Of a stretch of DNA of 33,747 nt, positions 14,774 through 32,843 are shown in pieces; the stretch's first letter is position 1; each line of letters starts with the position of its first letter. Source of the DNA: Clostridia bacterium. Lineage in GTDB: Bacteria; Bacillota; Clostridia; Oscillospirales; Acutalibacteraceae. Location of the stretch: positions 1-33,747 of the forward strand of contig JAFXDE010000012.1 in NCBI GenBank assembly GCA_017516315.1, written 5' to 3'. A program made the translations under genes and the position numbers. Below the pieces are notes generated by a model. It saw nothing but the letters and a program-made list of their open reading frames with translations, ran no database searches and was not told where the DNA came from.

Positions 14774-16477
14774 ATGAAATTACCTGAAATAGACTTTACT
14801 CCCGTAAGTCATCCCTATCCCGAAACTACAATGTTCGGCGCAATCGAGCTTTCGGCCAAAAGAGTTCCTCAGGCTCCTGCTCTTGACTTTATGGGAAAAA
14901 TCACTACTTATGAAAAGCTTGTGGAAAAAATCGAGGATGCTGCAAAAGCGTTCATAAGCTACGGCATAAAAAAGGACGATGTAGTTACCGTATGTATGCC
15001 TAATACCCCTCAGGCTATCGTGTGTCTCTACGCTCTTAACAGAATCGGTGCCATAGCCAATATGATACATCCTCTTTCTTCACAGAAGAACATCACCTTC
15101 TATCTTGACTATTCTGAAAGCAAGATGATTCTTACTCTCGACCAGTTCTATGAAAAGATTCTCAAGGCAGTGGACGAGGCTGAAAGAGATGTGGTTATTC
15201 TTACAGCAAGAATTCAGAACGAGCTTCCCTTTATTAAAAGTGTTGCTTACAAATATCTTAAAAATAAGGCTAATAATAAATTTCCCACCCGTGAAAAGGA
15301 TATTGTATGGGCAGATTTCGTAAAGACAGGCAAGGATGCAGTGCTTCCTCCCGTCGAATTCAGCAAGGAAAAGACTGCTGTTATCCTTTACAGCGGCGGT
15401 ACCAGCGGCACACCTAAGGGTATTCAGCTTTCTGATTTCAATTTCAATGCTCTCGGTATGCAGGTAGCTGAAATCTCAGGCTGTAATCTCGACTACGGCT
15501 GTAAATTCCTTTCTGTTATGCCTGTATTCCACGGCTTCGGACTCGGCATCGGTATTCACACCGTTCTCGAAAACGGAGCGCTCTCTATTCTTATTCCTCA
15601 GTTTACCAAGGAAAGCTATGCTAAGGCAGTGCTTAAAAACAAGCCTAACTTTATCGCAGGCGTTCCCACTCTTTATGAGGCACTTCTCAAGGTTGACGTT
15701 TTCGAGGGTGCAGATCTCTCTTTCCTTATCGGTGTATTCAGCGGTGGCGACGCTCTCAGCCCTGAGCTTAAAAAGAGAGCAGACGCTTTCTTCAAGGAGC
15801 ATAACGCTAACCTTCAGATACGCGAGGGCTACGGTCTTACCGAATGTGTTACCGCTTCCTGCGTAACACCCGTTGACCGTTCAAAGGTCGGAAGCATCGG
15901 TGTACCTCTCAGAGATATGCAGTATAAAATCGTAGAGCCGGGCACCTTTAATTATCTTCCTGCAGGTGAAATGGGCGAAATTATCCTCACAGGTCCTACC
16001 CTTATGCTCGGATATATGAAGGCTGACGAAGAAAACGCCAAAACTATGCGTAAGGATGAAAACGGAACAACATGGCTCTTTACGGGCGATGCAGGTTATA
16101 TGGACGAGGAGGGCTTCGTTTACTTCAAGCAGAGAATGAAGAGAATGATAGTAACCAGCGGCTACAATGTGTATCCCTCACATGTCGAAAATATTCTTGA
16201 TAAGCATGAGGCAGTAGATTGCTCCTGCGTTATCGGCGTCAAGGATCCTTATAAGATGCAGAGAGTAAGAGCATACATCGCTCTTAAGCCCGGCTTCGGG
16301 GCAAACGACGAAACAAAGGCAAAAATCCTCGAATACGCAAAGGAATATCTTGATGTGTTCGAAAGACCCAAGGAAATTATCTTTAAGGATGAGCTTCCGA
16401 AAACTCTCGTAGGTAAGGTAGCCTACCATACTCTCGAGAAAGAGGCGGCAGCAGAAGAGGAGGCTATGGCAAAATGA
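14774..16477 (+). CDS. acyl-CoA synthetase / acyl-adenylate ligase (AMP-binding)
   Basis: A 567-residue adenylate-forming enzyme that activates a carboxylic acid, probably a fatty acid, with ATP and transfers it to CoA or another thiol. The motifs are complete: P-loop YSGGTSGTPKG at 206-216, GYGLTE at 352-357, the TGDAGYMDEEGFVYFKQR hinge region near 430, and the catalytic lysine block PKTLVGK near 548. The ribosome site is GGAAGG. Its stop overlaps the next gene by 4 nt (ATGA), so it is coupled to a PlsC-like acyltransferase. That suggests an acyl group activated here is used to acylate a lipid precursor (inference). A distant, degenerate paralogue lies at 18459. Confidence 0.88.
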   Translation: MKLPEIDFTPVSHPYPETTMFGAIELSAKRVPQAPALDFMGKITTYEKLVEKIEDAAKAFISYGIKKDDVVTVCMPNTPQAIVCLYALNRIGAIANMIHPLSSQKNITFYLDYSESKMILTLDQFYEKILKAVDEAERDVVILTARIQNELPFIKSVAYKYLKNKANNKFPTREKDIVWADFVKTGKDAVLPPVEFSKEKTAVILYSGGTSGTPKGIQLSDFNFNALGMQVAEISGCNLDYGCKFLSVMPVFHGFGLGIGIHTVLENGALSILIPQFTKESYAKAVLKNKPNFIAGVPTLYEALLKVDVFEGADLSFLIGVFSGGDALSPELKKRADAFFKEHNANLQIREGYGLTECVTASCVTPVDRSKVGSIGVPLRDMQYKIVEPGTFNYLPAGEMGEIILTGPTLMLGYMKADEENAKTMRKDENGTTWLFTGDAGYMDEEGFVYFKQRMKRMIVTSGYNVYPSHVENILDKHEAVDCSCVIGVKDPYKMQRVRAYIALKPGFGANDETKAKILEYAKEYLDVFERPKEIIFKDELPKTLVGKVAYHTLEKEAAAEEEAMAK

Positions 16478-17664
16478 GTAAGAAGGTAACGAAGCTCGGC
16501 AGCGGGTACTATTTTAACTGCTTTGCAATGAAAACTATCATCGCGCTTCTTAAAAACAAGGTTATCGAAGAAAATAACGTTCATCTCGAATACTACAAGC
16601 CGAAGCACAAGTCTTTTCTATTTATCTGTAATCATACGGAAGCCGCCGATCCCGGTTATGAGATGGCAGCAATGAAAAAATACATCAGATATATAGCAAG
16701 CGACCACACTCTCAGAATGAGTCTCGGCTGGGCGTTCAGACTTTTTGGCGGTGTTATCATCAAATACAGAGACAGACCCTCCGATGCACTTATGGATGAT
16801 ATCAAGGCTAACCTTAAGGCCGGTATTCCCGTAGGTCTTCACGCTGAGGGCGCTATGTCCATAAACGGACAGACAGGTTATTTTTCCGACAACACAGGCA
16901 GACTCGTAAAAGAGTCCGGTGCTGCACTCATTACATACAAGTTTGTCGGTGGATACCTCAGAAGTCCCCGCTGGGCAAACAAATCAAGAAAAGGACCTAT
17001 CATCGGACATTTCGTAGGTGAGTACTCTCCTGAGGAGCTTTCTAAGATGACTGTAGAGGAAATCAATGAGCTTATCCGCCGTGACATACACGTAAATGTT
17101 TATGACGAGCAGAGAAAGAATCCTCACTCTTATGATGGTGAAAACTTAGCTGAATGTGTGGAAAGAATTCTTTATATGTGTCCGAAATGCGGTCAGGTAG
17201 GCACTCTTCACAGTAAGGGTGACGACCTTAAATGTGACTGCGGTGCAGTTTATACCATGAAGGCAGACGGCTTCTTCCACGGTGACGATGTGGTTTACGA
17301 TAATGTTTACGACTGGGATATGTGGCAGAGGAAGGTATGGAAGGAAAAGCTTCTTTCCGCCGAAGAAGGTGAGCTTATTTTCTCTGAGGGCGGACAGATC
17401 GTACGCCTTGTAAAGGAAGATGAAGACGAAATTCTTTCGGAAAACGCTACTCTTTCCCTTTATAAGGACAGATTCGAAATCGCTCTCGAAGACAAGACAA
17501 TCGTTATGCCTGTAAACAAGGTTAAACAGTCCTCTCTTGCCTCAAAGGAAACTCTTTTCCTTGTGGATGACAGAATGTTCCTGGACATCAGAAGCCATAC
17601 ACCCAGAGCCTCGACAAAATATGTCGCAGCCTGGAGATACCTTAACGGTAAGGAATATTATTAA
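16474..17664 (+). CDS. PlsC-like lysophospholipid acyltransferase with C-terminal zinc ribbon
   Basis: A 396-residue protein. The PlsC domain covers about residues 40-205. It has the catalytic H(X4)D as H54 to D59 in CNHTEAADPG and an EGxxS block, HAEGAMS (123-129). Around 236-256 sits a CPKC...CDC cluster (C236, C239, C254, C256) typical of a zinc ribbon. A beta-rich C-terminal domain of about 130 residues follows. Standard PlsC proteins are about 240 residues, so the extra 190 are unusual. The start codon overlaps the stop of the ligase gene. A role in acylating a glycerolipid or similar acceptor is inferred from the fold; the acceptor is unknown. Confidence 0.82.
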   Translation: MSKKVTKLGSGYYFNCFAMKTIIALLKNKVIEENNVHLEYYKPKHKSFLFICNHTEAADPGYEMAAMKKYIRYIASDHTLRMSLGWAFRLFGGVIIKYRDRPSDALMDDIKANLKAGIPVGLHAEGAMSINGQTGYFSDNTGRLVKESGAALITYKFVGGYLRSPRWANKSRKGPIIGHFVGEYSPEELSKMTVEEINELIRRDIHVNVYDEQRKNPHSYDGENLAECVERILYMCPKCGQVGTLHSKGDDLKCDCGAVYTMKADGFFHGDDVVYDNVYDWDMWQRKVWKEKLLSAEEGELIFSEGGQIVRLVKEDEDEILSENATLSLYKDRFEIALEDKTIVMPVNKVKQSSLASKETLFLVDDRMFLDIRSHTPRASTKYVAAWRYLNGKEYY

Positions 17665-17671
17665 AATAGAT

Positions 17672-17707
17672 GAGTCGGGAAAACATTGAAATTTCCCGAC
17701 TCTTTTA
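17672..17707 (+). terminator. intrinsic terminator of the ligase-acyltransferase operon
   Basis: GAGTCGGGAAA (17672-17682) pairs with TTTCCCGACTC (17692-17702), then TTTT. Confidence 0.85.
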
Positions 17708-17709
17708 TG

Positions 17710-17738
17710 TTGACTTTAAGGGCAAAGAATGGTAAAAT
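17710..17738 (+). promoter_or_regulatory. promoter of the original tRNA-Arg, now driving the element tRNA
   Basis: TTGACT (17710-17715), a 17-nt spacer, TAAAAT (17733-17738). The predicted start is about 40 nt before the orphan tRNA-Arg 5' half. No other promoter is obvious before the intact tRNA-Arg at 17890. Confidence 0.6.
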
Positions 17739-17785
17739 GAGATAACTTATTCACTGTTCCCTTTTACTTATTACTTTGAATATAC

Positions 17786-17823
17786 GCCTCCTTAGTTAAA
17801 TGGATATAATAAACCCCTCCTAA
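17786..17823 (+). pseudogene. 5' half of a disrupted tRNA-Arg(CCT)
   Basis: Acceptor GCCTCCT (17786-17792), TA, D arm GTTA-AATGGATA-TAAT (17795-17810), A, anticodon 5' strand AACCC (17812-17816) and loop CTCCTAA (17817-17823) with anticodon CCT. The next bases (GTGTA) cannot close the anticodon stem. The missing 3' half is at 20440-20483: its GGGTT pairs with AACCC and its AGGGGGT pairs with GCCTCCT (two wobbles). The join gives a normal tRNA with a 4-nt variable region. The break is therefore exactly in the anticodon loop. Confidence 0.8.
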
Positions 17824-17889
17824 GTGTATGTTTTAACGCTCGCCTTTGCAAAAAGGCAAAGGGTCATAGGTTTGAATTGTATCGTATAT

Positions 17890-17966
17890 GCGCTTGTAGC
17901 TCAGCAGGATAGAGCGTCCGCCTCCTAAGCGGAAGGTCGGGGATTCGAATTCCTTCAAGCGCGCCA
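17890..17966 (+). tRNA. tRNA-Arg (anticodon CCT), intact
   Basis: 77 nt including encoded CCA. Acceptor GCGCTTG/CAAGCGC, D arm GCTC...GAGC, anticodon stem TCCGC/GCGGA with loop CTCCTAA, T stem GGGGA/TCCTT with TTCGAAT, discriminator G. All stems pair, apart from wobbles in the T stem. Its sequence is unlike the disrupted tRNA-Arg around it, so it came with the element rather than by duplication of the target. It probably supplies the AGG-decoding function lost by the insertion. Confidence 0.93.
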
Positions 17967-17967
17967 A

Positions 17968-18004
17968 AAAGTGCCGAGAAATCAAGGTTTCTCGGCACTT
18001 TTAC
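17968..18004 (+). terminator. intrinsic terminator of tRNA-Arg
   Basis: AAAGTGCCGAGAAA (17968-17981)/TTTCTCGGCACTTT (17988-18001): a 14-bp perfect stem with six-base loop. Confidence 0.88.
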
Positions 18005-18083
18005 TTTTCTTTGCTCACTCGTTTTTTAGAGTGAGTTTTTTATTTTTAGGTATTAAAACAGAATCAAACTTTTACCATATCCC

Positions 18084-18159
18084 GATTAGCAAAAAATTAG
18101 CAGAAAATCGCCGTTTTGCTAATCGCCTGCTAATCGGATTTTTAGTAAAATCCTGCTAA
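18084..18159. repeat. cluster of GCTAAT/ATTAGC repeats, left end of the element
   Basis: Contains GATTAGC and ATTAGC on one side, then TTGCTAAT-CGCC-TGCTAATC (18116-18135), then TGCTAATTCG. A closely matching double repeat (18 of 22 positions) is at 20291-20312 near the right end. A 14-bp direct repeat ATTTTTAGGTATTA also occurs at 18042-18055 and 20395-20408. Such paired end-repeats resemble arm-type recombinase sites. Confidence 0.5.
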
Positions 18160-18205
18160 TTCGCACAGGCGAATGTTCTATCCATAGACTTTTTCTCAAA
18201 AATTA

Positions 18206-18234
18206 TTGTATTCTATTGCAAATTGTGGTAAACT
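18206..18234 (+). promoter_or_regulatory. promoter of the attenuated ligase paralogue
   Basis: TTGTAT (18206-18211), a 17-nt spacer, TAAACT (18229-18234). Transcription would begin at the left arm of the long inverted repeat at 18242. Confidence 0.6.
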
Positions 18235-18241
18235 AAACAAT

Positions 18242-18384
18242 GCCAAACTAAGTTAATAGTAAAATTAGGAGCATTATTTCTATGGGGATATTATACCCTT
18301 TTTGCTTTATTGTTGTGAATTTGATAAAAATGCAAATTCCATCAACATGAAAGCAGAAATGCTCTTATATTGACTTAGTTTGGC
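18242..18384 (+). promoter_or_regulatory. 143-nt self-complementary leader enclosing a leader ORF
   Basis: GCCAAACTAAGTTAATA (18242-18258) pairs along all 17 positions (one G-U) with TATTGACTTAGTTTGGC (18368-18384). Further in, GAGCATT (18269-18275) pairs with AATGCTC (18358-18364), covering the ribosome site AGGAG of the leader ORF. The leader ORF at 18282-18350 lies in the enclosed loop. The structure ends 24 nt before an intrinsic terminator. The layout recalls leaders of tetracycline ribosomal-protection genes (general knowledge, not verified here). Confidence 0.65.
18282..18350 (+). CDS. candidate 22-residue leader peptide
   Basis: It begins MGILYPFCFIVVNL and ends MQIPST, followed by TGA. 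AGGAG lies 10 nt upstream but inside a stem (18269-18275/18358-18364), so translation and folding would affect each other. It lies between promoter and terminator of the ligase gene. I infer a sensing role; translation is unproven. Confidence 0.5.
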   Translation: MGILYPFCFIVVNLIKMQIPST

Positions 18385-18408
18385 GACTATCGGGGTTTGC
18401 GTTTTTTT

Positions 18409-18443
18409 GTGCGGTTACTTCGGTAGCCGCACTTTTTATTTTT
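18409..18443 (+). terminator. intrinsic terminator (attenuator) immediately before the ligase gene
   Basis: GTGCGGTTAC (18409-18418), a TTCG tetraloop, GTAGCCGCAC (18423-18432), then TTTTTATTTTT. It ends 3 nt before the gene's ribosome site, so most transcripts should stop unless the upstream leader prevents it. Confidence 0.85.
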
Positions 18444-18458
18444 ATGGAGGAAAGAAAG

Positions 18459-20249
18459 ATGAACGAAGAAAAGAAACTGACCGCAATTCATTCAATCGAA
18501 AACCCAAAAAGGAGAATTGTAGAGGATTTAAAAATACGAAATAAGGATAATATGAAACTTTGTGCTGGTGAATACTTTGGGAACAAATTTACATATGCAC
18601 AAACCTTTAAAATGTTTGATGATTTCAAGAAAGCTTTTATACATGTTGACGGTTTGAATAAAGATACTATAACTATATCTACTCCATCCACAATTGCCTC
18701 AGTTAATGCGTTTTACGGCGCTCTTGATGCCAATAAAGTATTGAACATGACTGGTCCAGGTTTTCTCCATGCATATACCGAAAAGTACACGAGACAACTC
18801 AATAGCAAAACAGTAATTATTTATGATGGTTTTTTAAGTGATGATTTGATTTCAAAATTCCACGCTGCAGGAATCAAAAACCTTATTATTATGAGCATCA
18901 CAGATTATATGAATCCTATTGTAAAAATGGCTGCGGTAAAGCAAGGTATTATAAGCGATAAGGATTATTTAGACGAATATACAAAACGACACGGTTTCCT
19001 TCCACAAGGAATGGAAATCATACGTATGAAAGAGTTTGCTAAAATTGGTTCAAAAATAAAAGAGTCATATGATTTTAAATACGAAGAAAATCAATTAGCA
19101 GCTTACTTCTTAACCGGAGCAACCACAAGTCAATTTCCAAAGTGCGTTAAAGTATCGGTTGATGGATTCACAAAAATGGCAAGCATTTACGATCACATTT
19201 GGTTTGATTATAAAGCGGGTTCCAGATATTCAGTTCTTATACCTATGTTTTATGCCACAGGTGCAGTTCACAATATCTACACTGGGTTGGTTGGCGGTTT
19301 AACAATGGTATATCAGCCAAAATACGATAGATTTGCCTTTGCCAAGGATCTTGCTGATTCAAAAGCTAACATTGTACTTGCAACACCCAGTCATGTTGCA
19401 ACCTTAAATGAATGTGGTTTGCCTGATAACGCCCTTAGTCATGTTAAGTATGTGTTTATAGGTGGTGAAGCGATCCTTCCTGCCCAAATGGATAAATTTA
19501 GAAAATCAGCCGCTCGTCTAGGTATTAAATATATTCTCAATGGTTATGGTATGACCGAAACTGCGAGTATGTCTTCTGTTTCTGATAAAGATTCTGTGGG
19601 AGATGATGTAACTGTTTCACCTATTCCTGGAGTGGAATATCGAATTGTTGATCCTGTTACCAGAGAAATACTCCCCGATAACACAAGAGGTATCCTTGAG
19701 ACAAAATCCCCCTGTGCTTCCTTGGGTTATTTTGATGTGGAAAAGAATGAAAATCTGTTTACCGAGGATGGCTGGATAAATACAGGAGATGTAGCCATTA
19801 GATATAGTAACGGGAAATATAGAATCTTTGGTAGAAATTCTGACAGTTTTACTAATTGTGGCATTACCTACGCTATGTATGATATTGAGGAACAGGCACT
19901 AAAGCATCCAGATGTTGCTGAAGCAGAAGTGATTAAGTTCGAGATCGACAGCGAAGAATATCCCGCTATGGTTGTTGTATTGAATAGTAATGCAACTAAT
20001 AGAATTGCAGATATTACAAAAGAACTCTGCGCCATTGATGCTGCAGGCATGGAACATTTTATTGGTATTCGTTTCGTTGATAATTTCAAGACGCATCCTG
20101 TTACGTCAAAACGAGATTATCTTTCCTTGCAAAATGATAAAGAAGGATATTTCTTTATGGATAAAAACGATAATGCTTTTGTATGTAATATTGGAGAAAA
20201 AAGGCAAGCGATTAAAAAAGAAAAGATAACAGTTGCAAACATTCAATAA
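18459..20249 (+). CDS. divergent AMP-binding (adenylate-forming) enzyme carried by the tRNA-Arg element
   Basis: 596 residues from ATG 18459 (GGAGG 8 nt upstream; an earlier ATG at 18444 overlaps that site). It is related to acyl-CoA synthetases: NGYGMTETAS matches the A5 motif, GDVAIRYSNGKYRIFGRNSD the hinge region, and HPVTSKRDYL could hold the catalytic lysine. The phosphate loop is degenerate: LTGATTSQFPKC in place of SGTTGxPKG, with Ser and Cys replacing glycines. Activity may be altered or lost. Its DNA is visibly more AT-rich than the ligase at 14774. It is the only cargo of the element and sits behind a leader ORF and terminator. Substrate unknown. Confidence 0.75.
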   Translation: MNEEKKLTAIHSIENPKRRIVEDLKIRNKDNMKLCAGEYFGNKFTYAQTFKMFDDFKKAFIHVDGLNKDTITISTPSTIASVNAFYGALDANKVLNMTGPGFLHAYTEKYTRQLNSKTVIIYDGFLSDDLISKFHAAGIKNLIIMSITDYMNPIVKMAAVKQGIISDKDYLDEYTKRHGFLPQGMEIIRMKEFAKIGSKIKESYDFKYEENQLAAYFLTGATTSQFPKCVKVSVDGFTKMASIYDHIWFDYKAGSRYSVLIPMFYATGAVHNIYTGLVGGLTMVYQPKYDRFAFAKDLADSKANIVLATPSHVATLNECGLPDNALSHVKYVFIGGEAILPAQMDKFRKSAARLGIKYILNGYGMTETASMSSVSDKDSVGDDVTVSPIPGVEYRIVDPVTREILPDNTRGILETKSPCASLGYFDVEKNENLFTEDGWINTGDVAIRYSNGKYRIFGRNSDSFTNCGITYAMYDIEEQALKHPDVAEAEVIKFEIDSEEYPAMVVVLNSNATNRIADITKELCAIDAAGMEHFIGIRFVDNFKTHPVTSKRDYLSLQNDKEGYFFMDKNDNAFVCNIGEKRQAIKKEKITVANIQ

Positions 20250-20290
20250 CAAAATGTACACCTATTATTGCTACCCTAAAATCACAGTTG

Positions 20291-20312
20291 TTGCTAATTG
20301 CTTGCTAATCAA
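20291..20312. repeat. double GCTAAT repeat, right end of the element
   Basis: TTGCTAAT-TGCT-TGCTAATC, matching 18116-18137 in 18 of 22 positions, about 130 nt inside the right tRNA junction. Confidence 0.5.
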
Positions 20313-20370
20313 ACACAGTAAAACAATACAAAACTAGCGGTAACGGCGTAACACAAGATAACACATTCAC

Positions 20371-20403
20371 CCTAAAATCCCCTGACATCAGGGGATTTTT
20401 AGG
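20371..20403 (+). terminator. intrinsic terminator of the ligase paralogue
   Basis: AAATCCCCTGA (20375-20385), loop CA, TCAGGGGATTT (20388-20398), then TT. Outer CCTA/TAGG also pair. Confidence 0.8.
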
Positions 20404-20439
20404 TATTACAAGGGATATCGTTCGTATTTTCCACGGTAT

Positions 20440-20483
20440 CTCCTAAGGGTTAGTTGTGGGTTCGATTCCCGCAGGGGGTGCCA
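20440..20483 (+). pseudogene. 3' half of the disrupted tRNA-Arg(CCT)
   Basis: Loop CTCCTAA (20440-20446), anticodon 3' strand GGGTT (20447-20451), variable AGTT, T stem GTGGG/CCCGC with TTCGATT (20456-20472), acceptor AGGGGGT (20473-20479), G and CCA. It has no 5' half of its own; the bases before it (CCACGGTAT) do not pair with GGGTT. It fits the orphan 5' half at 17786-17823. Confidence 0.8.
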
Positions 20484-20486
20484 AAA

Positions 20487-20514
20487 AAAAATCAAGTCAA
20501 AGGCTTGATTTTTT
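20487..20514 (+). terminator. terminator of the original tRNA-Arg
   Basis: AAAAATCAAG (20487-20496)/CTTGATTTTT (20504-20513), immediately after the CCA of the 3' half. Confidence 0.8.
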
Positions 20515-20554
20515 CTTTTTTATATGTTAAAACAGTCAATAAGGAGTGATAAAT

Positions 20555-21589
20555 ATGAAATTAAGAAAAATCGCAGCAGTTATTCTTGCTCTCACAATGC
20601 TTTTGAGTATTACGGCTGTTTTCTCTTGGGCAAGTTTCGACGATATCGATTCCCAGAAGGAAGCTTTTTTATTCGGTAAAGGCCCGGAAATAAACGGATA
20701 TTCCATCGACTACCGTTATTATTCTCCCGTAAAGGAAAATGATAATACCAAATATTCCCTCGTAATATGGCTTCACGGATTCGGTAACGGTCTAAAAGAG
20801 GGCGATCAGCTCGATGCTAATGATATCGCCGTATGGGCAAAAGAGGATTATCAGCAGCGCTTCAAAGGAAGCGAGGGCGCATTTATTTTAGCTGCCCGTT
20901 CTTTAGAGGAAAAGGGTCTTTTCTGGGATAACTGTCTTATTTATCCTCTTCGCGGAGCTATTGATGCGTTTATCTCTGAAAACAGAGAAAACATAGACAT
21001 CAGCCGTATTTACATAGGAGGATATTCTATGGGCGGAAAGATGACACTTAAAATGGCTATGGCATATCCCGAAATGTTTGCCGCTATTTTTCCTGTATGT
21101 CCTTATCTGACACCTTCTGCCGATGCCTGCTCCACGATCAGCTCGATTCCTATGTGGCTTACAAGCGGAGTAGCCGATTATATAGCGAACTATTATTCGA
21201 TGGCAATGACGGTGTGGAAGAATGTTATCTCTCAGAGTAAGGTGGCTGAGGACTGCCGTTTTTCTACTCTTACTCAGACTGCCTATCCTGACGGATGCCT
21301 TACCCCTACACCGCATCATTCCTGGTTTGCGGTAAACTATGATATGTTCTCCTCTGATAAGGGCGACTATCCCTTTATGAAAACCGTCAACGGAAAGGGA
21401 GAGACTGTTAATCTGACTTATCCCGACGGTATGATCTCCTGGCTGTCAGGCTTTACGAGTGAATATGACGGCTCTGTGGCTTATGACGGAGGAATTTCTG
21501 AGGCTTATAACGCTGAAGAAAGCGCTTTTAATGTTATAATTAATTATTTCAGAAATCTTATAGAATATTTCTTGTCGCTTTTCAGATAA
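20555..21589 (+). CDS. secreted alpha/beta-hydrolase esterase (PHB-depolymerase/feruloyl-esterase-like)
   Basis: 344 residues from ATG 20555 (AAGGAG 8 nt upstream; the GTG at 20546 overlaps it). The signal peptide covers residues 1-27 (KLRKIAAVILALTMLLSI, cleavage near SWA). The catalytic nucleophile is in the elbow GGYSMGG, the oxyanion region is VIWLHGFGNG, an acid is probably the Asp of TSGVADYI, and the catalytic His lies in HHSWF. The family cleaves ester bonds in polymers or plant side chains outside the cell. The C-terminus ends with a hydrophobic stretch (YFRNLIEYFLSLF). It is a single gene just right of the tRNA-Arg element. Confidence 0.82.
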   Translation: MKLRKIAAVILALTMLLSITAVFSWASFDDIDSQKEAFLFGKGPEINGYSIDYRYYSPVKENDNTKYSLVIWLHGFGNGLKEGDQLDANDIAVWAKEDYQQRFKGSEGAFILAARSLEEKGLFWDNCLIYPLRGAIDAFISENRENIDISRIYIGGYSMGGKMTLKMAMAYPEMFAAIFPVCPYLTPSADACSTISSIPMWLTSGVADYIANYYSMAMTVWKNVISQSKVAEDCRFSTLTQTAYPDGCLTPTPHHSWFAVNYDMFSSDKGDYPFMKTVNGKGETVNLTYPDGMISWLSGFTSEYDGSVAYDGGISEAYNAEESAFNVIINYFRNLIEYFLSLFR

Positions 21590-28147: not shown

Positions 28148-28224
28148 CGAGGCGTAGCGCAGCTTGGTAGCGCATCTGCTTTGGGAGCAGAGGGCCGCAG
28201 GTTCGAATCCTGTCGCCTCGACCA
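28148..28224 (+). tRNA. tRNA-Pro (anticodon TGG), intact
   Basis: 77 nt with encoded CCA: acceptor CGAGGCG/CGCCTCG, D arm GCGC...GCGC, anticodon stem TCTGC/GCAGA with loop TTTGGGA, T stem GCAGG/CCTGT with TTCGAAT, discriminator A. All stems pair. It marks the left boundary of an AT-rich accessory segment. Confidence 0.95.
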
Positions 28225-28230
28225 CATAGA

Positions 28231-28281
28231 ACAAATCCGAACCCTTACCTTATAGGTGAAGCGTTCGGATTTGTTGTTTTT
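28231..28281 (+). terminator. intrinsic terminator of tRNA-Pro
   Basis: ACAAATCCGAAC (28231-28242)/GTTCGGATTTGT (28263-28274): 12 bp, then TGTTTTTG. Confidence 0.85.
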
Positions 28282-28336
28282 GTGTCATAATAACACTGAA
28301 ATTAAGGCTGTTACATTAACCAATATTGTTAATTGT

Positions 28337-31300
28337 TTAAATATTCACAGGCATTTTAGCAATATAATCTCTTATTATTCTTTCAAATTTCTTGACATAA
28401 TCAATATTATTTTCAACCCTATACCTATTAAGATAATGAATATATAATGGTAAAAAATATTCAGGCAATTCTAACCTTAACGATAAATTTAAAACTAGTG
28501 AACTTGCATCTTCATCACTTAATAATGGTAAAAGATTTTGTATTACATCATCTTTTGTTTTAATTGTCGATATTTCTTTCAAGCAATAAATTCTTTGATC
28601 TTTGAAAGTATCCAAAAAAGACCAATCTGTTTTGAGCAATGTTTCCAGATCCAAATTTAATGATATATAGTCATATAAAAAATCAAAAGCTGTTATATTT
28701 TTTGTTGTGTAAATGTACAGAATCAGATTTTTAATCATTTTTTCTGAATCTTCCTTATCTAACTCAAAATATTCAATTTTAGTTTTTGAGTACTCAGGAA
28801 TAGCAAATGATTCAGTAACATTTTTTGAAATATCTTCACCTTGTAAATTCAAGAAAAATATGCACCACATATATTTTTTCCATACATTGTAATATTTTTC
28901 TGATTGTGAATATTCGAAAATCTGATTAGCATAACCATTCAAAGTTATAAGTGAACTTGTTCTATAATCAGAGGTCTCCTGCATATATATATGATTATAA
29001 TTACACAAATACATAAAACTATAAATAGAACATAAGCCAGGGTGATTCTTTATCTTGAAATTATCAGCTTCTTTTTGGATTTTTGAATTAAAATCCAAAA
29101 AATTTTTCAATCCTAGAGTTACCGAAATAGAGTAAAAAGAAAAGTCGGTTTCGCTTTCTTTCACTAAATCTAAAATACTGTTTATTGATTTATAATTTTT
29201 AGAGATATCGTTATTGTTGTTTTCTAGTATAAAATTCAAATCGATATCTATATTGTAATTAACTTTCTGCCACAATTTCCACATTAGAGGATTTTGTTTA
29301 ATCAAGTTATCCTCACTAAGCAAAATGATTTCTTTTTCATACTTTTTTATATTATTGTAAAACTCTTGATAATTTTTTACTTTCGTACTACCTATTGTCT
29401 TCACTATGAGCGACATACCTTTTAATGAATATTTATCAAAGAGATTGATTAATTCTTGTATTTCAGTTTCTCCTATCTCAGGAATTAAATATTGAAGTGA
29501 TAAATATTCTGTAACTTTCGTTTCTTCTTTTAAAAATCTGCGTATGTTGTAAATAAGAGATAAATTACAATCGAAGTATTTGTTTATTACGGTTAAATTC
29601 GGTTCGGTAAGCGTATGTTGTTTCAATAGGCTTTTTAGAGTTATTTTCAATATATTTTCTTTCGCTTTATCACAAGAAAGATTTTTAGCATTCAAGATAA
29701 TATCGGTAATTTGTGATAAATTAATTTCCAAAAATGCACCTCTATTAATAGCTGTTGAAACCACTTCATAAAGTTCTTCTGGACAAGAAGAATTGAACAT
29801 TTCAAAATAGTGAACTGCTATTTCTGATGCATATTTTTCAGAAAACCCTTTTAGTTTTAATTTGGTCTTTTTGTCTTGAAGCAAAACTGCAGCAAAAGAA
29901 AAATCTGTATTGGTAAGGTTATCTTTGTTTATAAGATAATCTGCTAATTCTGATTTAACAGAATCTGACATAGTTAAGATGGATGATATGTTGTCCAAAA
30001 ATTCTAATTTACTGTAGTTCTCAATATATTTACATAATTTGTTTTCATATTTAGGTAGATTTTTGAAAATATTATTTGCCAATAATGTAAAAGCAACTTG
30101 AGAGCCATAATATATGCTTTTTGTTTCGCACATTTCTTCTGAATTTATGTCGCTTCCATTTAACTCTCCTAATACAGTATCAATTAAATGGTCTAAATAA
30201 TAGCCTTTCATTTTTGCTATACATTCTACTAAAAAGATAAATGTATTTTTCCAATAAGAACTTTTTGCTAAATCTTTTAAAACTGTTCGCAAATTCACAT
30301 CATTAAAGGTTAAAACAATGTGTACTGCGGCAAGAAATTCTTGCATAGAGCGAATAGAAAATCCAATATAACCTTCTTTTATTTCTGATGCGAAATTAAT
30401 TCTATGTACAATTATAGAATATGTTTGATTCAGCAAATCGTTATAATTAGGCGCAGTTTCTTTAATACCATCCAAGCACAATTTCTCTTTTATCAATTCC
30501 TTCATGCGATCTAAAGATATTAATGCATCGCTTCCTTCTGTAGTCGACGAACGTTTTTGTAATTCGTAACCTAAAAGATAATAAACGCCTTCTACAAGAT
30601 CTTGATTACTATTTAAAATTGACCCCATACCCTTTTGTTTTTCTCTTTTTAAAATAATATCAAAGTATTCTTTAAAAAGAGAATATTTATCTCGAGGAGG
30701 TTCGCCACCAGCACGTACTAGTATGGCTATAATAGTTGCTTGCAAAGGAGTTTTCATCATAAAAGCAATTTGCTCATTATCCAAGCCTTGTTTTAGAATT
30801 TCTAAATAATTATTGCGCTTTGTGCTATCATCTTCGATAACTTTTAAGAGCTTATTTAAATATTCAAAACAACTTGGTCTATCTAAGGGTATTAGATCTA
30901 TATGTGTAAAATTTGTTTTGTTGAATTCGCCAACATACCCCTCTGGACGAGTTGTTGCAAAAAACAAAGCATCTGAATCTGCTTGACGCAATTCAATTTC
31001 CATAAAACGGTTTATTTCATCCATTAATTCTTTTCTGTTAGAAGTTTCGGGAACTTCATCTAATCCATCAAAGAAAAATGCCCATGAATATTTTTTAAAA
31101 TATAATCTTAATGTTTCATTGTCAAATTTATGAGACGACTTATCCGCTATGATAGAGGATATATATGTTACTAAGTCAAATGACTTTTTTTCTTTTTGCC
31201 TATTATTTATCCAAGAAGAATAAAGTCGCAATTCAATACGGACAGGAACGCGATGGCAAATAGGTAAAGAAATACCATCTTCATATATTCTTTTGATAAA

Positions 31301-32233
31301 ATCTTCCTGTTTTGAGTTAGACATTGTAGAAAAGTTTTTTATAAATGTAACACGATAAATTTGTGCTAAAAATTGACATACTGTTGATTTTCCTTGACCA
31401 GCTGATCCTTTTAAAACATATTTGTTTGAATTATTAATTTTATTTCTTTGTTTTGATTTTTGGTATTCTAATGTAGAATATCTGTAGATTTCATTTCCTA
31501 CATCAATAGCATGAGAAATAAATTTTCCTGTTTTTTCCGTTTCTTCAAATTTAAAATTCAAATCAATATAAACCTTATCTATTGAAACTTTTTCATCTGT
31601 GAGTTTTCCAGCTTGCTCCATTCTAGAACAATAATCATCATCAAAAGCTTGCATCAAATAGCGAAAAAACGCATTTTGCCTCTCTGTTTCATGAGCAGTA
31701 ACATGATCATACAAACTATGTAGAATATCACCCGATAAAATATAACTAGAGTAAGAAGTTGCAACATCCCTATGTCCATCTAAAAATCTAGCTATATCAT
31801 CGGCGCCGATTATATGTATATTTGGAATTAGAGTTTTGTAATGCTCTGCAATACTATCAATTTTATCTTTTATGCCTTTTTCTGCCACTGGTGTTAACAC
31901 TATGTTCGTAAAAAAAAGATAGTTGTCTGGAAGCTGCTTTCCTGCTAACTTTTTGTTTTTGAAAGCACTCATTTCTGATTCAAAGCATTCTTTCAACCAA
32001 AGATAATCCGCTTTTTTAGTGTTTGGTTCTTTAAACTTTGCTTGAATAATCCAATATCCATCCCAAGACTCAGAACTACTTGGATAAGGGGCCTTACCTT
32101 TGAAAGTTGCTTCTCTTTGTCCATCTGAACCATTTCCAAATATACTTACCCCTTCACCAATTATTTTTTTACTTAAAGCTTGTACCAAATGCTCAAAGTT
32201 ACGTGCTCCAAGATTATTTAATGTATAACTCAT
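28337..32233 (-). CDS. Mrr-like nuclease-NACHT NTPase, probable anti-phage NLR-like protein
   Basis: A 1298-residue protein in three parts. Residues 1-150 resemble a PD-(D/E)xK/Mrr-type nuclease: NFEHLVQAL (E14), GSDGQREATF (D37, E41) and WIIQAKF (Q64-x-K66). Residues about 268-560 are a NACHT-type STAND ATPase: Walker A GSAGQGKS (276-283), Walker B AFFFDGLDEVP (385-395), sensor ATTRPEGY (426-433) and MKTPLQATI. The last 700 or more residues are helical, without known repeats, and suit a sensor. Bacterial NACHT and Avs proteins of this build recognise phage products and then cut DNA or otherwise stop growth. The DNA is strongly AT-rich. Its place next to a tRNA-Pro integration site suggests a mobile defence gene. 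Start after AGGGAGG. Defence is inferred, not shown. Confidence 0.8.
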   Translation of the reverse strand: MSYTLNNLGARNFEHLVQALSKKIIGEGVSIFGNGSDGQREATFKGKAPYPSSSESWDGYWIIQAKFKEPNTKKADYLWLKECFESEMSAFKNKKLAGKQLPDNYLFFTNIVLTPVAEKGIKDKIDSIAEHYKTLIPNIHIIGADDIARFLDGHRDVATSYSSYILSGDILHSLYDHVTAHETERQNAFFRYLMQAFDDDYCSRMEQAGKLTDEKVSIDKVYIDLNFKFEETEKTGKFISHAIDVGNEIYRYSTLEYQKSKQRNKINNSNKYVLKGSAGQGKSTVCQFLAQIYRVTFIKNFSTMSNSKQEDFIKRIYEDGISLPICHRVPVRIELRLYSSWINNRQKEKKSFDLVTYISSIIADKSSHKFDNETLRLYFKKYSWAFFFDGLDEVPETSNRKELMDEINRFMEIELRQADSDALFFATTRPEGYVGEFNKTNFTHIDLIPLDRPSCFEYLNKLLKVIEDDSTKRNNYLEILKQGLDNEQIAFMMKTPLQATIIAILVRAGGEPPRDKYSLFKEYFDIILKREKQKGMGSILNSNQDLVEGVYYLLGYELQKRSSTTEGSDALISLDRMKELIKEKLCLDGIKETAPNYNDLLNQTYSIIVHRINFASEIKEGYIGFSIRSMQEFLAAVHIVLTFNDVNLRTVLKDLAKSSYWKNTFIFLVECIAKMKGYYLDHLIDTVLGELNGSDINSEEMCETKSIYYGSQVAFTLLANNIFKNLPKYENKLCKYIENYSKLEFLDNISSILTMSDSVKSELADYLINKDNLTNTDFSFAAVLLQDKKTKLKLKGFSEKYASEIAVHYFEMFNSSCPEELYEVVSTAINRGAFLEINLSQITDIILNAKNLSCDKAKENILKITLKSLLKQHTLTEPNLTVINKYFDCNLSLIYNIRRFLKEETKVTEYLSLQYLIPEIGETEIQELINLFDKYSLKGMSLIVKTIGSTKVKNYQEFYNNIKKYEKEIILLSEDNLIKQNPLMWKLWQKVNYNIDIDLNFILENNNNDISKNYKSINSILDLVKESETDFSFYSISVTLGLKNFLDFNSKIQKEADNFKIKNHPGLCSIYSFMYLCNYNHIYMQETSDYRTSSLITLNGYANQIFEYSQSEKYYNVWKKYMWCIFFLNLQGEDISKNVTESFAIPEYSKTKIEYFELDKEDSEKMIKNLILYIYTTKNITAFDFLYDYISLNLDLETLLKTDWSFLDTFKDQRIYCLKEISTIKTKDDVIQNLLPLLSDEDASSLVLNLSLRLELPEYFLPLYIHYLNRYRVENNIDYVKKFERIIRDYIAKMPVNI

Positions 32234-32411
32234 AATTTGCCTCCCTATATACTATATTGTATATATTGTGTCAAAACTCTTAGAAAGTAACATTGTTTTC
32301 TCGAAAAAAGTTGAACTTTGTCGAAACAGCCAAAACATTATAACTATGCTTGTGCACAATCACAACAAAATTTAATAAAAAGACAATCCCACACATTCGA
32401 CAAAACTTCAA

Positions 32412-32456
32412 CCTCCTTGTACAATGGTCTTACCAAAATACAAGGAGGATTTTTAT
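32412..32456 (+). promoter_or_regulatory. hairpin sequestering the tnpV ribosome site
   Basis: CCTCCTTGTA (32412-32421) pairs perfectly with TACAAGGAGG (32439-32448). The AAGGAGG ribosome site of tnpV is inside the 3' arm, followed by ATTTTTAT and the ATG at 32457. The same structure looks like an intrinsic terminator, so expression of tnpV would be low unless the hairpin is opened. Confidence 0.65.
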
Positions 32457-32843
32457 ATGAATTTACCCAAACACATCACCAACGAACAAACCGGTATCCA
32501 TTACACCCTTCATGGCGACTATTACCTGCCTGACTTAACACTACCTAAGCCTAAAGACAACCGTCCTATCGGTAAATGGGGTCAGTTTCATCTCAACCAC
32601 CTTAAAAAGCACTGCAAATCAACATATTACACCTATCTTATGAACGGCACACTTCACGATTACCTTTGTAGTATCAATGACCAAGCAGAAGAAATGTTCA
32701 ACCGCATAGTGTCACATATGGCTGAGGTAGACGGTACTGACGAAAATCTGAAAGCCAGCGACCAAATGAAATGGGTAGGTCTTATGAATAACTATCGTCA
32801 CTGTGCCGAAGAAATAGTCTTCGACTCAATAATCTACACCTGA
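32457..32843 (+). CDS. tnpV: TnpV-like transposon-encoded protein
   Basis: 128 residues from ATG 32457. It matches the TnpV pattern known from Tn4451-type mobilisable transposons of Clostridia: KHITNEQTGIHYTLHGDYYLPDL, PIGKWGQFHLNHLKKHCK, YLCSINDQAEEMFNRIV, and QMKWVGLMNN near the C-terminus. The role of TnpV is not firmly established. No large serine recombinase or mobilisation gene is in the window, so this is a fragment of, or an entry into, an element that continues to the right. The ribosome site is sequestered in a hairpin. Confidence 0.75.
   Translation: MNLPKHITNEQTGIHYTLHGDYYLPDLTLPKPKDNRPIGKWGQFHLNHLKKHCKSTYYTYLMNGTLHDYLCSINDQAEEMFNRIVSHMAEVDGTDENLKASDQMKWVGLMNNYRHCAEEIVFDSIIYT

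Follow-up and report, generated by a model that had tools for sequence, protein, structure and literature searches.

The locus described here raises the question of how a 2.6-kb insert without an integrase gene came to lie in the anticodon loop of a transfer RNA (tRNA) gene, tRNA-Arg(CCT), and how the host fares with that gene split in two. The insert sits in a 33,747-bp stretch of DNA from a Clostridia bacterium (hereafter, the window) on contig C18 of a draft assembly (genome G000; 57 contigs, 82% complete). We read it as a young, non-autonomous integrative element, which uses an integrase acting in trans or in cis and whose integration depends on the complete tRNA-Arg(CCT) gene that it brings along, and we give this reading a probability of roughly 0.72. 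It draws on the anatomy of the insert, an empty site in a congener, the freshness of the tRNA halves, a contig free of integrase genes, similar ends around different cargo in other genomes, and an integrase-bearing relative. The insert and the two halves of the host gene are made up of the following parts.

17786–17824, + strand: orphaned 5' part of the host tRNA-Arg(CCT), which closes with the left core (ARAGORN and rejoining of the halves).
17817–17824, + strand: left core CTCCTAAG, the attL crossover region, one of three copies in the window.
17825–17889, + strand: spacer from the core to the borne tRNA, with an imperfect hairpin and possibly the promoter of that tRNA.
17890–17966, + strand: complete element-borne tRNA-Arg(CCT) (ARAGORN; 66.4 bits with the Rfam tRNA model).
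17967–18002, + strand: terminator-like hairpin behind the borne tRNA (perfect 15-bp inverted repeat, 6-nucleotide loop, then T-rich DNA).
18086–18159, no strand assigned: left arm with five TGCTAA/TTAGCA sites (starting at 18086, 18097, 18117, 18128 and 18154), presumed integrase arm-binding sites.
18242–18440, + strand: structured leader RNA (fold z-score and covariation).
18459–20249, + strand: cargo gene for an AMP-binding (adenylate-forming) protein of 596 amino acids from the ATG at 18459 (PF00501, E 1.1e-35).
20264–20447, + strand: right end, kept in common with an element at locus L232 despite other cargo (80.1% over 186 bp).
20292–20308, + strand: right arm with a pair of TGCTAA sites (11 bp apart; motif positions).
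20440–20447, + strand: right core CTCCTAAG, the attR crossover region, one of the three copies in the window.
20440–20483, + strand: orphan 3' half, which encodes CCA and has a terminator-like repeat of its own behind it (ARAGORN and rejoining).

The window contains exactly three copies of the core, all on the + strand (17817, 17922 and 20440), whereas its − strand has none, and the insert, measured from core to core (17817–20447), comprises 2,631 bp at 36% GC. ARAGORN, with which the tRNAs were called, finds no tRNA in either half taken singly and returns a tRNA-Arg(cct) from the joined flanks, in which the core is common to both halves. Neither junction restores the host tRNA, and the core is only 8 bp long. 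The rejoined 75-mer is identical, over 75 of 75 nucleotides, to the intact tRNA-Arg(CCT) of six congeners (G001, G005, G014, G020, G023 and G025) and also to genes at ten loci in named records, which partly coincide with the contigs of the six congeners; this identity makes the insertion look young. An earlier, sequence-only reading of this stretch had proposed an anticodon-loop split by a 2.6-kb element, with the core at both junctions and again in the inner tRNA and with neither junction mending the target, all of which is borne out here. Only its limits for the halves (17823 and 20447) had to be corrected, to 17786–17824 and 20448–20483 for the rejoined gene.

The same reading had suggested scoring the joined halves as a tRNA, with the result given above, and seeking an empty site in relatives, for which the left flank provides the anchor.

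14774–17664, + strand: left host flank with two genes, at a locus orthologous in G032, G016 and G013 (collinear at 82–84% over 3.2–3.3 kb).

The two genes encode an acyl-CoA ligase-type protein (567 amino acids) and a protein of 396 amino acids with weak acyltransferase similarity. In G032, this flank is collinear over 3,334 bp at 82%, including the 5' half, to which the 3' half is joined without a gap (47 bp, 96%). Both upstream genes are likewise present in G016 (84%, 3,173 bp), where the tRNA is intact and preceded by about 0.7 kb of unaligned DNA, and in G013 the left flank is collinear at 84% and the site is occupied by a different element. The right flank of the insert, compared up to 21,700, is not collinear with G032 or G016; proof of the empty site therefore comes from the left flank and the tRNA, with the right flank contributing none.

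The incoming DNA encodes a tRNA of the isotype that it disrupts and, as the sequence-only reading had it, a full and different tRNA-Arg(CCT) is supplied, identical to that of the host at 47 of 77 positions. The borne tRNA is presumably expressed, and the cell presumably has some need of it. That need may be partial, since a tRNA-Arg(TCT) gene, whose product could read AGG by wobble, is present in G000 (L002) and two intact tRNA-Arg(CCT) genes were found in the congener G018; AGG makes up 20 of the 226 arginine codons in 14 genes of the window. A single-copy check with a loose pattern for the 3' part of the tRNA returned exactly one place in 22 of the 34 genomes of the genus set and none in four, although this pattern is weak, as orphan halves are included in its count and the borne tRNA of the window escapes it. 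We refuse the label of an element addicted to its host through an essential tRNA, which had been put forward from the sequence alone, because precise excision would mend the host gene and loss by excision would go unpunished. More likely, the borne tRNA makes integration survivable.

Both ends of the insert were compared with 5000 first-order simulations of each end region for their content of TGCTAA sites. The five sites on the left (17967–18440) compare with a simulated mean of 0.53, with five or more in 1 of 5000 simulations, and the two on the right (20250–20440) with a mean of 0.10, matched by 23 of 5000. The left arm is 81% identical over 95 bp to the G013 element. The distance from the left core to the core of the borne tRNA is 105 bp, and the spacer is 95% identical to that of L157 over 63 bp (13 spacers were aligned). 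The arrangement TGCTAAT-N4-TGCTAAT is found at five places in 3 of the 34 genus genomes, one of which (L249, in G007) has no core in view. Additionally, a copy of the left arm of the window (18004–18195; 89% over 192 bp) lies in another species at L182 (6490–7193, − strand), about 0.6 kb behind an intact tRNA-Arg(CCT).

The AMP-binding gene is the sole substantial gene of the element. One such gene as cargo, and no integrase, is also what had been noticed from the sequence alone: there is no other sizeable open reading frame (ORF), and a profile search of G000 gave no PF00589 integrase on C18, with PF00589 matches on C1, C21, C45, C50 and C56.

Before the ribosome-binding site of the cargo gene, the leader folds into a long, near-complete hairpin, behind which comes a terminator hairpin that overlaps an alternative pairing (fold z −8.75); in the consensus, CAATCGG..GTTTGCG pairs with part of the terminator hairpin as an antiterminator-like alternative. 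Homologues are found at L228, L131, L183 and L265, with partial ones at L237 and L172, all of them from loci picked near tRNA-Arg(CCT) or integrases; in the window and the first four of these loci, the RNA stands ahead of cargo genes. Among its 51 pairs, 11 vary on both sides when five sequences are compared, which none of 500 shuffles reaches and which compares with at most 3 in slid controls, but the structure was derived from these same five sequences and the test thus favours it. No Rfam family reaches its gathering score on the leader (the best is L20_leader, with 25.3 of 58.7 bits, E 0.049), and the phage collection holds no match. The leader may regulate the cargo or represent a separate small RNA.

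The same site is occupied elsewhere. With a pattern for the 5' half, we located 30 places in 27 of the 34 genus genomes, five of them occupied (G000, G004, G008, G013 and G023) and all five with an intact tRNA-Arg(CCT) behind. In named genomes, searched with the same pattern over at least 119 stretches, 100 places are intact and 23 are not. Seven of the 23 end or reach N within 30 bp; among the remaining 16, a tRNA-Arg(CCT) starts within 200 bp of the core at 12 (L136, with its 3' end cut, L153, L162, L172, L180, L189, L191, L204, L232, L233, L239 and L240; L191 is G023 and is counted in both sets), and the other four are cut by a contig end at 92–220 bp (L157, L178, L201 and L246). At L246 (4233–4376), by a contig end, the host 5' half runs directly into the 3' half of a foreign tRNA-Arg, which is the layout that a crossover at the core would give.

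A left end together with an orphan 3' half was found at 11 loci, and dropping L163 (G025), which has orphan 3' halves too and a contig N gap there, leaves ten complete integrase-less intervals of 1.19–4.30 kb. L131 (1.1 kb, with a degraded 3' half) stands outside this set, and the orphan 3' halves of G004 (L055 and L056), whose left end is out of view, are uncounted. No interval ORF of at least 60 amino acids matches the three G000 integrases, or a profile of them, at 1e-5. The ten intervals, with ends alike within subgroups, lend support to the idea of a minimal satellite-like cassette and provide the other elements with similar ends that the sequence-only reading had proposed to look for. 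Both orphan halves are present in four of the ten, namely the window, G013, L204 (its 5' half cut by the contig start) and L232.

The cargo of these elements is diverse. A protein of 188 amino acids is carried in G013 and L170, a type II methyltransferase and nuclease (a type II restriction-modification pair) in G014, a zinc-ribbon protein in L204, a protein of 340 amino acids without family in L232, small ORFs only in L177 (isolate An172), GNAT, SatD and DUF3307 proteins in L220, a DUF4236 protein in L228, and a DUF2971 protein with a large repeat protein in L237. Searches at the family level covered 300 or 398 genomes, depending on the query, and in 300 of them the 188-residue cargo of G013 has three matches at E ≤ 0.001 (best 47%), at short loci with no tRNA or core within them.

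Comparison of the ends suggests groups that are alike in their ends and different in their cargo. From core to core, 17 of 23 spacers measure 102–105 or 123–125 bp, and the other six (179–221 bp) have arm-like repeats inside the spacer, as seen by eye. Apart from the window and L232, right ends are similar among L204, L228 and L237 (83–86% over 139–162 bp) and between G014 and L220 (74% over 196 bp). G013 and L170 have a whole 1,213-bp unit in common at 89%; outside it, their similarity is limited to pieces of tRNA and a 599-bp stretch (76%), which in L170 sits between the tRNA and the unit, so that the two layouts differ. A small-ORF stretch (L059, 14154–14729; L170, 2320–2906) lies behind the displaced 3' half in G013 and between the tRNA and the arms in L170.

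An integrase-bearing relative is found in Negativibacillus massiliensis (NZ_FTRU01000007.1), where a 53.6-kb conjugative-type element has the same core and a borne tRNA-Arg(CCT). Its attL core (516,086–516,093) stands behind the host 5' half and is followed by a spacer and the tRNA-Arg(CCT), and its attR core CTCCTAAG (462,507–462,514) closes the element and is joined by a displaced 3' half. Behind the tRNA lie three exact TGCTAA sites and two variants, with one further site before attR and six beyond it. The displaced 3' half does not fit the host 5' half, which indicates more than one event there. A tyrosine integrase of 457 amino acids is encoded about 0.8 kb from attR, and the element also holds TrbL, ParA, ParB, RepA_N and a coupling-protein gene in pieces. 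These pieces lie beside two reverse-transcriptase ORFs (L252, 2394–10438), a layout that group II introns could produce, and a further ORF of the element resembles an Erm-type rRNA methyltransferase by eye (L251, 16644–17381). The gut record MT836186.1 is identical to N. massiliensis over 2,169 bp, from the integrase through the core, and then continues into a different tRNA 3' half, which fixes the right boundary of the element and shows its movement. MT836781.1 has the same layout, with an integrase at 76%.

Close relatives of the N. massiliensis integrase were found in 21 of 300 family genomes, and at 9 of the best 12 of these loci the integrase lies no more than 1.4 kb from a tRNA-Arg(CCT) gene or half. 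At L240 and L153, which belong to the elements with longer spacers, an integrase ORF lies within about 3 kb of the left core. Besides its conjugation genes, the N. massiliensis element has the core of the window insert, a borne tRNA and TGCTAA sites. The insert may derive from an integrative conjugative element, but no stepwise intermediate for it was found. Another gut record, MT835493.1 (L292, 7995–10460), holds an orphan 5' half, a complete tRNA-Arg(CCT), an integrase of 474 amino acids and other spacer repeats. Ten of its proteins searched against PHROGs gave integrase and accessory matches and no structural genes, so that it is at most a putative phage. Viral contigs gave no exact match to the arm pattern, the window spacer or the leader-RNA motif and no confirmed relative of the N. 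massiliensis integrase or the AMP-binding protein; the foreign-type tRNA pattern occurs in one of them (L250). Compared as a whole with the phage collection, the element matches 12 records over 1–3% of its length only, mostly in the tRNA.

Taken as such an element, the insert could have arrived as follows. A tyrosine integrase from another element, most likely of the 457-residue N. massiliensis family, would bind the TGCTAA arms at both ends, and an 8-bp crossover would insert the circle of the element into the chromosome within the anticodon loop of the host tRNA-Arg(CCT). The host gene would be split with neither junction mending it, and the borne gene, directly behind the attachment core, would keep tRNA-Arg(CCU) and the decoding of AGG. 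The element itself appears reduced to its ends, its tRNA, a leader RNA and one cargo gene, and would probably move with an integrase in trans or else be carried along by a conjugative relative that integrates into the borne tRNA. The N. massiliensis integrase family is the likely helper; the acting integrase, present excision and the route of transfer are steps that we infer.

Several observations weigh against this account. Six of the ten intervals have their insert immediately behind an intact tRNA, with the 3' half as the sole orphan, a layout that would be either ordinary restoration or the outcome of an orphan 5' half since gone. Replacement would thus not be the sole mode at the tRNA-Arg(CCT) site, and this is the main result that speaks against a uniform replacement story. 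The AMP-binding cargo is without a close relative that would show movement of this exact element: no other match at E ≤ 1e-60 appeared in 398 family genomes, with up to three candidates scored per genome, and among the matches listed the best-scoring distant relatives in the genus reach 24–29% identity, with short stretches to 34%. Judged by its sites, the arm match between the insert and the N. massiliensis element is one at the level of the motif. Further, no close N. massiliensis integrase was found in G000 at E ≤ 1e-60 with 5 of 8 candidates scored, so that a resident helper is missing, and most of the compared loci are contigs of metagenome-assembled genomes.

The lack of a close integrase in G000 would also fit a dead remnant, a conjugative element or prophage with its own integrase and tRNA that was internally deleted and kept for the borne tRNA. 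Missing integrase and transfer genes fit such decay, and decayed elements that keep attL and attR, the cis-mobilizable elements (CIMEs), have been described, at least in the part of PMC5704250 drawn on here. The rejoined halves, however, are identical to the tRNAs of six congeners and leave little time for decay, the same economy of parts recurs in intervals of two spacer-length groups, and one 1.2-kb unit with the same cargo lies in two non-collinear contexts at 89% (G013 and L170). We therefore consider a remnant unlikely, though it deserves to be kept in mind. That foreign DNA was placed between the tRNA halves by assembly or binning is far less plausible: the window is one contig of a 57-contig draft and tRNA repeats can mislead assemblers, but the three cores stand in the expected order with TGCTAA at both ends, the layout recurs across numerous assemblies of independent origin, and loci that bear a tRNA or are free of an integrase occur in the isolates An172, N. 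massiliensis and Pseudoflavonifractor capillosus An386a (the last, L159, with at least the left end of such an insert). Group I introns are known from the anticodon loops of bacterial tRNA-Arg(CCU), so a self-splicing intron, or a split tRNA joined as RNA, comes to mind, yet the insert contains a complete tRNA-Arg(CCT) and the G032 site lacks the insert. This reading was rejected, with hardly any chance left to it, after an Rfam scan of 17700–20560 at E ≤ 1 gave no intron family.

The non-autonomous element that we favour has its closest described counterpart in the tRNA-dependent lysogeny of actinobacteriophages (Guerrero-Bustamante and Hatfull 2024, PMC10865867). In the parts of that paper used here, the core in the host tRNA is likewise short (8–17 bp there, 8 bp in the window), no junction rebuilds the tRNA and the incoming DNA brings a complete tRNA of the same isotype. 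Those are whole phages with their own integrase, whereas the insert has 2.6 kb, one cargo gene and no integrase, in Clostridia and at tRNA-Arg(CCT). The same sections list the Lactobacillus johnsonii prophage Lj965 as another likely instance and urge a wider survey, and an excerpt of PMC12429752 gives the mechanism also for some Sinorhizobium meliloti prophages, so that tRNA-dependent integration is not confined to actinobacteriophages. Like the CIMEs, as far as PMC5704250 was drawn on, the insert keeps attL and attR without integration or transfer genes, at a site used by integrase-bearing relatives and with att chains nearby in relatives; CIMEs, in contrast, are described as decay products, and here ends are alike around different cargo in subgroups and a full target gene is carried. 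The tRNA gene (tDNA) islands of Islander, in the portion of PMC4383910 consulted, resemble the insert in the tRNA target, the displaced fragment at one end and the anticodon-loop crossover (class A), but Islander requires an integrase and a restored tDNA, neither of which the window has, and this layout would be missed by it. For integrase-less elements in anticodon loops and for tRNA-Arg sites in Clostridia, open-licence PMC literature yielded nothing closer, and no description of this combination of features, the small size and the replacement chains was found there. Tycheposons are tRNA-linked cargo elements, some of which have no recombinase, and resemble the insert by description only.

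Beyond the single insert, broken 5' halves are lined up at four loci (L178, L191, L233 and L285), from two to five per locus and with a degenerate one among those of L191, until an intact tRNA or the end of the contig is reached. Repeated insertion into the borne tRNA explains such chains, which look like footprints of accretion, and tandem duplication of units of about 93–103 bp could lie behind part of them (L191 and L285). At L285 (3120–3592, − strand), an intact tRNA-Arg(CCT) is preceded by five broken CTCCTAAG sites, spaced at about 93 bp, and an integrase gene is adjacent. Elsewhere in the window, at 28148–32843, a tRNA-Pro(TGG) lies by a gene for a protein of 1298 amino acids, with a weak nucleoside triphosphatase (NTPase) signal and a weak N-terminal PADLOC match, and a TnpV gene, perhaps another tRNA-linked island.

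A broader picture, which we offer tentatively and would not yet bet on, is that the tRNA-Arg(CCU) gene acts as a relay in gut Clostridia. Integrase-less cassettes, built of core, own tRNA-Arg, arm sites, in some a leader RNA, cargo, arm and core, would use the integrases of conjugative and other larger relatives in trans, exchange cargo in an integron-like manner while keeping their ends, and insert one after another into the borne tRNA. Cells would then often be using the tRNA of the latest element, and the broken 5' halves upstream would form a fossil record. The chains of such halves would thereby document, in order, how a single tRNA gene was invaded time after time. Finders that require an integrase and a restored tRNA would overlook such inserts. 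The element in the window would extend tRNA-dependent integration from whole phages to integrase-less elements of 1–4 kb in Clostridia, and would give gut bacteria a cassette-like route for single genes, in one case for a restriction-modification pair.

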